Under the pieces are notes generated by a model. It worked only from the letters and a program-made list of their open reading frames with translations, was not told the DNA's origin and did no database searches. A DNA stretch of 22,005 nucleotides from a virus. Each line of letters opens with the position of its first letter. Within the stretch, counting starts at the first letter, position 1. The position numbers were made by a program, and so were the translations under genes. The stretch is from positions 1-22,005 of IMG/VR virus record IMGVR_UViG_3300023223_000134. One strand, given 5' to 3'. This document shows positions 16,374 to 21,472 of the stretch, piece after piece.

Positions 16374-17114
16374 TTAATAATCCGCCATGGCTGCAGCTGC
16401 GGTGTCTCTATTTTTCATCAAGACTTTCAATTGCTCTTTAAGCTTTTCATGCAAATCAAAATCTGGAAAAACGCGAATAATCTTCACCGTGGCGCGCGGG
16501 TGGTATAAGACCAAGTCGCACCATTCTCGACCTGTAATCATTAATTGGCCTTGTATCTGCATTTTGTGATCAGTAGGGCATTCTCCAGTCTCCTTGTAAG
16601 TTGCGAATATTTTAACCACATTTTTCGCCAAAGGAGCTTTTATTTCCATAAGGCCATTTTCTCCTACAAAGCGATCCGGAGAGCATCCTATAGTCTCTTC
16701 ATCATCGGTCACAAATCCTACTTGCTCAGGCTCCATACCCATAATATCCATATATGATTTAGCCGCGATCATCTCAGATTCATGCCCATGATCGGTATGA
16801 GCGTTTCCTAGCCATTCGTCACAATCGTAACCATATAATATTTCAGAGGCCAGTTTAAAATGATAATCCGTCTTGGACATGGCGAGCTTAGGGTTTAACT
16901 TAACGCCCAAAAGGCGAGCTATATGATGTAATTCGTCCACTTTCTTTTTTTTAAGTTCAGATTGAGCGTATTCGCTATTCGAAAGCAAATCGATAATTTC
17001 AGCTTTCAATAGGTCCTTTTCCGTGACTACCTGCCCAAACATTGAGGCCGTTGGCTTCCCTCTCCTGAGTTCGTGCCATTCGTGAGTGTTTTGGGTGACC
17101 TTATGAGGTTTCAT
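16374..17114 (-). CDS. YqaJ/lambda-exonuclease-type recombination nuclease with SAP-like insertion
   Basis: The product has 246 residues and belongs to the YqaJ-like exonuclease family, which resects double-stranded ends 5' to 3' to feed an annealing protein. The key blocks are 'EWHELRRGKPTASMFGQVV' (12-30), 'DHGHESEMIAAKSY' (108-121, with a conserved Glu), 'GCSPDRF' with the metal-binding D147, 'GLMEIKAP' with E157 and K159, and 'MQIQGQLMITG' with the conserved Gln. The PD-(D/E)xK core is therefore complete. Unusually, about 55 residues (36-92) are inserted between the first block and 'GHESE', and they read as a SAP- or HeH-like DNA-binding helix pair ('KKKKVDELHHIARLLGVK' then 'MSKTDYHFKL'). 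The start at 17114 overlaps the ERF gene by 14 bases, so the pair is co-translated. Confidence 0.85.
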   Translation of the reverse strand: MKPHKVTQNTHEWHELRRGKPTASMFGQVVTEKDLLKAEIIDLLSNSEYAQSELKKKKVDELHHIARLLGVKLNPKLAMSKTDYHFKLASEILYGYDCDEWLGNAHTDHGHESEMIAAKSYMDIMGMEPEQVGFVTDDEETIGCSPDRFVGENGLMEIKAPLAKNVVKIFATYKETGECPTDHKMQIQGQLMITGREWCDLVLYHPRATVKIIRVFPDFDLHEKLKEQLKVLMKNRDTAAAAMADY

Positions 17115-17841
17115 TGTTTGCGGCCCTTATTTTAGCACCAAGAGTCGCTTTTGTGTTTTCGAAGTCGGCTGTGGTCAGGCTTTTAATTGACTCGATTTTA
17201 TAGAATTTACAAAGATCAATAGCGGAGGAGCCTGAATCAATCAGAAGCTGTTCAAGCTCCTTTATCTGTTCGTCTGAAACAAAACTTATAACAGGGACTT
17301 GATTCGCGTCGTTATCATCTTCAGCGACGATGCCCAACATTGGCAGTAGAGTATATCTTTGACCATACGTAATAGCCATTCCTGACGTTTTAGCGTCGTT
17401 TGTGGCGTTGTTAGATGGGATTGAGCCTTCCCAGTATGATTCCTCTGAATGCCCGCCAGTGTGAGAAAGAATGCAGGTTACAGAGGTACAATCACCAACA
17501 CGTCCAGTTTTAAACCGAACTAAAAGCCCGTTCGCTTGCATATGAGGCCGTATAACAGCCATGATATTATCTAGTTTCGCGTATTTCCCGTTGTTGCTTT
17601 TGGCGGTTTTTAAAATACGCGGTACGTCATTTTGGAATTGAATAATAGCAGCGTCAAAAGATTCTTTTGCATACCGCGCCTTATCTTCTTTGTCCATGTC
17701 GTACATAACGCGCAATTTTTCGGCGTCAAACTTAGGGTCTCGGGCCAATTCAATGATCAAATTACTAAATTGTCCATGTCCACTTTGTGCAGTCGCAACC
17801 GTATTATTGCCCGCTTCGATGATTTCTTTTTTATCCGTCAT
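17101..17841 (-). CDS. erf: ERF-family single-strand annealing protein
   Basis: The product has 246 residues with the ERF signature: 'NNGKYAKLDNIMAVIRPHM' (83-101), 'NGLLVRF', and 'KTSGMAITYGQRYTLLPMLG' followed by 'AEDDNDAN' (151-180). ERF proteins bind single-stranded DNA and anneal complementary strands. In P22 the Erf protein circularises the linear genome after injection. Residues about 187-240 ('SDEQIKELEQLLIDSG' and 'KFYKIESIKSLTTADFENTK') form a separate helical C-terminal domain of the kind that in some annealases recruits exonuclease or SSB. The exonuclease gene follows with a 14-base overlap. The start is ATG 17841 with GGGGAATTAAAA before it. Confidence 0.88.
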   Translation of the reverse strand: MTDKKEIIEAGNNTVATAQSGHGQFSNLIIELARDPKFDAEKLRVMYDMDKEDKARYAKESFDAAIIQFQNDVPRILKTAKSNNGKYAKLDNIMAVIRPHMQANGLLVRFKTGRVGDCTSVTCILSHTGGHSEESYWEGSIPSNNATNDAKTSGMAITYGQRYTLLPMLGIVAEDDNDANQVPVISFVSDEQIKELEQLLIDSGSSAIDLCKFYKIESIKSLTTADFENTKATLGAKIRAANNETS

Positions 17842-18325: not shown

Positions 18326-18679
18326 CTAAGAACACCGCATGCATCTCTTGTAACCTTTATTCACTCGACGCCTTAAGCATCCTTGACACCATTCATCTGA
18401 GCCTTCTCTAGACTCTAAAATTTCTGGCGTTAATCGAACATTTAGATTTTGCTTTCTGTGCTTAATTTTGTTCATTTTCGGATTATGTTTTTTGATAAGT
18501 TCGAATTCTGTATCAAGCATTTCATCCGCACTATCAAACTGATGTAAAACCGTGAAGTCTAGATTTTTGCCGTTGTGTTTATGCCAACGAAAACGGTCAG
18601 ATGGTTTCTGTATTGTAGTTCCAATATAAACCAACTTACCGTTCAACTCCCCCTTATAAACTGTATGAATTCTACTCAT
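18326..18679 (-). CDS. GIY-YIG nuclease-like protein with C-terminal CxxC pairs
   Basis: This 117-residue protein is the first of the minus-strand cluster. The GIY-YIG pattern is seen as 'IHTVYKGELNGKLVYIGTT' (4-22), where the two short strands are 'TVYKG' and 'VYIGT', then an Arg/His helix 'DRFRWHKHNG', and 'LDTEFELIKKHNPKMN' with the catalytic-type Glu at about 58 and the final 'P..N'. Small GIY-YIG proteins cut DNA as homing or recombination nucleases. The tail has 'WCQGCLRR' and 'KRCMRCS' (C98, C101, C113, C116), a treble-clef-like zinc site. Its role may be DNA processing beside ERF and exonuclease, or it may be a selfish endonuclease. The start ATG 18679 has an AAAGGGAATTGAAAAA leader. 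Confidence 0.75.
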   Translation of the reverse strand: MSRIHTVYKGELNGKLVYIGTTIQKPSDRFRWHKHNGKNLDFTVLHQFDSADEMLDTEFELIKKHNPKMNKIKHRKQNLNVRLTPEILESREGSDEWCQGCLRRRVNKGYKRCMRCS

Positions 18680-21094: not shown

Positions 21095-21103
21095 GTGGCT
21101 ATT

Positions 21104-21472
21104 ATGAAACTCCTAAAACGATTAACGATGGTCACAAAGCCTTTTTCTCTTAATAAATCCACGCAAAATGTCGGAAACCATAGGTCTTGCACTAAGGGTT
21201 ATCGCTTATGGAAAAGAGAATTAGGCGCTGAGATATCCGCGCAACTTATCCCAAATTTAAAAGTCGTCGCTGGTAAATACCAAATTATCATTGAAGTTGG
21301 CCGCAAAGCTACAAAGGCTGATATAGACAACCTCATTAAACCTATTGTTGACGTGATGGTTAATCTTAAAGTAACGCCTGACGATAGAAATATGGAAGCC
21401 GTTTGTATTTACCGCATCGAAGGCAAAATATCTTACATAGAGATTTACGGAGAGGATCAAGGGGATGGTTAG
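21104..21472 (+). CDS. rusA: RusA-type Holliday junction resolvase
   Basis: The protein has 122 residues from ATG 21104, chosen because TAGGTGG lies just upstream; a GTG at 21095 would add three residues. The RusA hallmark is 'KADIDNLIKPIVDVM' (about 70-84) with two Asp, followed by 'VTPDDRNMEAV', which contains the second DD pair. These carboxylates bind the metal used to cut four-way junctions. RusA family proteins are dimeric and about 120 residues, as here. The N-terminus lacks the usual 'PxPKxR' strand motif and instead has 'TKPFSLNKS', a modest departure. The enzyme would resolve junctions formed by the ERF/exonuclease pathway before packaging. The next gene starts inside its last codons. 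Confidence 0.85.
   Translation: MKLLKRLTMVTKPFSLNKSTQNVGNHRSCTKGYRLWKRELGAEISAQLIPNLKVVAGKYQIIIEVGRKATKADIDNLIKPIVDVMVNLKVTPDDRNMEAVCIYRIEGKISYIEIYGEDQGDG

Follow-up and report, generated by a model that had tools for sequence, protein, structure and literature searches.

Exonucleases of the lambda type are the workhorses of recombineering, and their grip on DNA is usually credited to a few side chains in the central channel. Two solved enzymes are the closest reference for the protein described here, namely LHK-Exo of Laribacter hongkongensis (PDB 3syy), the nearest in structure, and lambda exonuclease itself (PDB 3sm4, 1avq, 6m9k). A published account of the lambda enzyme (PMC7496540) names Trp24 and Arg28 as pocket residues and includes Arg45, Lys49 and Met53 among those of the central channel. 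The same source has Arg45 reaching, downstream of the active site, into the minor groove; of the channel mutants, R45A gave the strongest DNA-binding defect, with activity nearly full. Within titles and abstract openings, a search that covered few subscription journals, we found no description of SAP/HeH, zinc-finger or helix-turn-helix modules inserted into exonucleases of the YqaJ/lambda type, nor any work joining YqaJ with the SAP domain.

The stretch of DNA analyzed (the window) is the 22,005-base virus record IMGVR_UViG_3300023223_000134, which carries virion genes recognizable through Pfam and PHROG (Phage_stabilise and a major head protein). The open reading frame at 16374..17114 on the minus strand is a genuine gene coding for a YqaJ/lambda-type exonuclease of 246 amino acids (Pfam PF09588, E 7.2e-18, 65.7 bits versus a curated cut-off of 22; PHROG 149 exonuclease, E 3.9e-27). 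The original prediction of a YqaJ-type enzyme with a normal PD-(D/E)xK core was correct. The catalytic set E114, D147, E157 and K159 was invariant or nearly so in a 76-row alignment, with D147 and E157-x-K159 located at residues 147-159 (16638..16676, minus strand) and D147, K159 and E114 corresponding to lambda Asp119, Lys131 and Glu85. W13 and R17 are conserved as well, within a phosphate-pocket block, EW...R.G..TAS (residues 12-24; 17043..17081, minus strand), that aligns with lambda Trp24, Arg28 and Ser35. The full-length model (mean pLDDT 89.7) has the ordinary fold of the family, and fold searches retrieved LHK-Exo (3syy, Z 23.5, rmsd 1.6, 184 aligned residues) and lambda exonuclease (3sm4_B, Z 22.6, rmsd 2.8, 203 aligned). 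As a member of this family, the protein would form a trimeric toroid and digest DNA processively in the 5'-3' direction. The start of the gene shares 14 bases with an ERF single-strand annealase gene located upstream (17101..17841, minus strand; Pfam ERF, E 1.2e-17; PHROG 155, E 2.4e-32), and both make up a minus-strand recombination pair.

The difference from the known enzymes lies after the N-terminal block. The short loop of Arg45, Lys49 and Met53 in lambda exonuclease is longer by 41 residues in the window protein, and LHK-Exo lacks these residues as well (the alignment to it stops at residue 32 and restarts at 78). We placed this insertion at about residues 34-74 (16893..17015, minus strand) because residues 36-73 face only gaps in all the other rows of the 76-row alignment. 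Its length was derived from a survey that compared the window protein with 178 relatives, all collected ahead of the scans for long segments (six were hand-picked from a tblastn list). Between TAS and the G of the G...E motif, 169 rows have 29-61 residues, most often 43-45; the count rises to 85 in the window protein and to 92-96 in nine rows of the actinophage type. The inserted segment, as first noticed from the sequence, is thus partly confirmed: it is real and located before the "GHESE" helix, but the earlier figure of about 55 residues is an overestimate, since the "SK.D" end (residues 80-83) belongs to the core. The closest relatives devoid of the insertion show G..SKS...Y at this point, and in the model "SK.D" is part of an ordinary core helix (residues 75-94; 16833..16892, minus strand). 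The other motif invoked, "VDEL..IARLLG" (residues 59-70), does fall inside. The range 36-92 proposed as foreign to the core is divided in the model: 34-74 form helices of their own and 75-94 the core helix. The full-length model predicts three short helices (32-45, 48-56 and 59-68) with moderate confidence (pLDDT of the block, 59-76). When residues 30-96 were modeled with the homologue L208 described below (pLDDT 75), the last two were fused, i.e., the helix boundaries differ between models.

The location can be read directly on the lambda structure. W13, R17 and T22-A23-S24 of the window protein match lambda Trp24, Arg28 and Thr33-Ala34-Ser35 (6m9k numbering), and therefore residue 34, the first one inserted, lands at Arg45, with Lys49 and Met53 in the same loop. 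The expectation that this spot is normally a short loop near the DNA entry of the toroid is right by homology. The loop that holds the DNA would therefore be replaced or enlarged.

When viral_contigs was searched directly, the window protein gave 12 stretches and no confirmed relatives, and tblastn of residues 18-98 among phages returned nothing beyond chance matches (E 5 or worse). Given the outcome of the direct search, we resorted to alignments and to a length-based DNA pattern combining conserved exonuclease residues with an over-long gap. Two scans recovered 59 stretches, of which 53 read as exonuclease frames (the other six were dropped as chance matches). One phage contig, L208 (also fetched a second time as L240), codes for a protein with 50% overall identity, an insert of this type and a TAS-to-G stretch of 84 residues. 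Identity is 14/40 aligned positions in the insert and 105/198 in the core. Both inserts share the pattern KDLLK.E...KKK..EL..IAR and keep a basic cluster, K55-K57 plus R67. The best conserved portion, KKKKVDELHHIAR (residues 55-67; 16914..16952, minus strand), has K55-K57, E61, L62, I65, A66 and R67 in common with L208. The ERF-exonuclease gene pair is also found in L208, and a scan using this pair as the query provided 47 relatives, with the insert present, again, only in the L208 contig. The window protein and L208 cluster together (SH-aLRT 97) in a tree built from 229 core sequences, and L241, without the insert, is their sister (99). L241 has ERF beside the exonuclease gene, like other close relatives lacking the insert, and the type of annealase does not account for the insert, since it accompanies both L208 and L241. 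As for its confinement to one clade, the window type of insert was found in two phages only, whereas the same site is used in several clades of the tree.

Other phage exonucleases carry different modules at this place. Those of actinophages (Gordonia phages Moosehead and Malisha, Arthrobacter phage Auxilium and Mycobacterium phage Frankie) are also YqaJ proteins with an insert of similar size, but theirs matches the Phage_zn_bind_8 zinc finger, above the cut-off in 5/5 full proteins tested and listed for four of the seven members of the set A1. HeH-like inserts were found in L193, L206, L210, L217, L230, L231, L233 and L368. The HeH profile matched four of five isolated segments tested (E 4e-6 to 0.09, all below the cut-off), and the L206 insert matched an Arc-like repressor PHROG (5e-9). 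By sequence, a solved natural relative of these inserts is FluMu gp35 (2out, E 2e-4), although a designed protein scored equally. A third class, helix-turn-helix-like, accounted for most reads among the matches listed by the third scan. PHROG 641, a terminase small subunit, was recovered with 3/3 segments tested (E 6e-6 to 5e-4) and Pfam with 0/5, so the link with terminases comes from PHROGs only. Inserts outside these classes appeared in the L182 and L186 groups, L213, L232, L235 and L401. A conserved one, FPDD..IE...F.GTKA.C..WVR, was seen in L182, L183, L188, L203, L207, L218 and L220, and tests of three proteins and one segment gave no Pfam match to it. That of L401 is rich in cysteines (CCWCG...YHPDC), unlike the actinophage zinc finger, and had no match in Pfam or PHROG.

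We sorted the inserts by regular expressions in 391 usable rows (397 pooled, minus the truncated L274, L280, L327, L346, L367 and L374). Among the matches listed there were at least 249 rows with no insert, 82 helix-turn-helix-like, 32 zinc, 17 other, 8 HeH and 3 of the window type (the latter from two contigs, as L208 and L240 are the same), counts that are not frequencies because three scans asked for long segments. The tree, 229 rows thinned from these 391, was built by a quick method that left 87/226 inner branches open, and therefore only the starred branches were relied on. The six insert labels require 18 changes on it, versus a mean of 56.4 when shuffled, and the starred branches alone force at least six changes of the label "no insert." A clear-cut case is that of the Pseudomonas phages Medea1 (L405, 1501-2268) and YA3 (L406, 1501-2145), whose exonucleases are 77% identical, the former with an insert and the latter without. 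The Medea1 insert is at the same place as in the window protein, and a gene noted as ERF family is found just upstream, as in the window, but the insert belongs to the class resembling terminase small subunits (by the relatives tested). In YA3 the annotation of the upstream gene reads single-stranded DNA-binding protein. Judging from these comparisons of sequence, the Arg45 loop of lambda-type exonucleases is a recurrent plug-in site for small modules, several of them of DNA-binding kinds. This modularity has been hidden by annotation, since the proteins are labeled only "exonuclease" or similar ("Cas4 family exonuclease" in some of the actinophage records).

The reading that we favor, with a probability of about 0.55, is that of a lambda-type 5'-3' exonuclease paired with an ERF annealase and equipped with a helical module at the Arg45 loop that adds contacts to the incoming duplex. 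In phage single-strand-annealing recombination, the enzyme would act together with the annealase of the adjacent upstream gene. The module would be part of the central channel's wall, at the entry point of the duplex, and a trimer would display three of them per ring. Their contacts may alter loading, grip or processivity, with ordinary catalysis. Contact with DNA is suggested by the position at the Arg45 loop, by the conserved K55-K57 and R67, and by the mostly DNA-binding families of the modules found at the site elsewhere. Against it are the lower conservation of the insert compared with the core, the moderate confidence of the model and the dependence of the helix boundaries on the model used. 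Charge has to be considered as well: the window insert is neutral (7 K/R and 7 D/E), that of L208 is net acidic (6 K/R and 10 D/E), and median net charges in the other classes range from -1 to +1, which counts against a generic DNA clamp.

The insert had been proposed to be SAP/HeH-like. A genuine DNA-binding domain of this fold (or of the Rho_N type), in which the core helix 75-94 may supply the second helix, is a reading that we regard as rather unlikely. The expectation of separate helices was right, and Rho_N (PF07498) gave a partial match at residues 53-72 (E 0.03 with the whole protein and 0.0019 with the segment alone), covering only positions 1-20 of 43 and with 18.6 bits versus a cut-off of 24.9. 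PHROG 3281, endonuclease VII, was weakly matched by the inserts of the window (0.045) and L208 (0.012). In SCOP, the N-terminal domain of Rho and the C-terminal domain of endonuclease VII fall within the LEM/SAP HeH fold. HeH-like segments do occur at this site in other phages, so the SAP/HeH idea suits the site better than the window sequence. However, Pfam HeH and SAP matched neither the whole protein nor the isolated segment (E up to 10, although the HMMER filters drop weak ones), the L208 segment had no Pfam match, and hhalign found no match between the window insert and the HeH-type inserts. Likewise, the fold searches with the insert-alone model, which had been suggested for comparison with SAP domains, contained no SAP/HeH chain among the matches listed, and both models of the insert are helical, with three helices in the full-length one and no clear extended loop. 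The best of those matches, TotA in VIA (Z 5.0, rmsd 2.7, 63 aligned) and one at E 3.0 in Foldseek, led to no fold assignment. Sequence searches of the PDB retrieved designed repeat proteins for the window insert and, once L208 was included, thioredoxins and a ligase-interacting factor (E 0.03 or worse). These, like PfNDH2_hel_ins in Pfam (0.014 at best), were considered chance matches. The zinc finger Phage_zn_bind_8 (PF24623) did not match the window insert either, and residues 34-74 contain no cysteine. The SAP/HeH label is thus not established and the original interpretation is, overall, partly supported. We describe the insert as a predicted helical module, whether HeH/SAP/Rho_N-like or of another helical kind.

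About equally improbable, in our opinion, is that the insert serves to dock a phage or host protein (e.g., the annealase, a single-stranded DNA-binding protein or a helicase) rather than to contact DNA. The neutral to acidic composition would fit, and lambda exonuclease does bind its annealase, but the account cited above places that contact on helix E, other than the Arg45 loop (PMC7496540). Moreover, ERF is found beside insert-bearing and insert-less close relatives alike, and several modules of the site come from DNA-binding families in other phages. We give even less credit to a neutral variation in length with no function of its own, even if nearly all close relatives lack the insert (0/73 new loci, L107-L179, had a stretch of >61 residues) and its conservation is below that of the core. 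Two phages at 50% identity have kept it with a common pattern, and the stretch lengths were two-humped (29-61 versus 85-96) before any scan choosing long ones.

Extending the DNA-contact reading beyond this protein, we can only tentatively suggest a general socket, a possibility that we would not yet call probable. Unrelated phage lineages would repeatedly place small DNA-binding modules of unrelated kinds (zinc finger, HeH, a terminase-like helix-turn-helix, the helical one of the window and others) at the DNA entrance of the ring, so that each enzyme would prefer particular DNA ends or sites, e.g., the phage's own packaging ends for the terminase-like module. The gain and loss of entire modules at the place where DNA enters would reveal how phages tune the processing of DNA ends, and Medea1 and YA3 provide a matched natural pair, with and without the insert, for direct comparison.

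Two other genes were observed in the vicinity. A small GIY-YIG endonuclease-like open reading frame (18326-18679, minus strand; Pfam E 7e-5, and endonuclease and homing endonuclease PHROGs) lies just upstream of the recombination genes. A RusA-like Holliday junction resolvase (Pfam E 7e-6) is located at 21095-21472 on the plus strand, so annealase, exonuclease and resolvase are all found within ca. 5 kb, on opposite strands.
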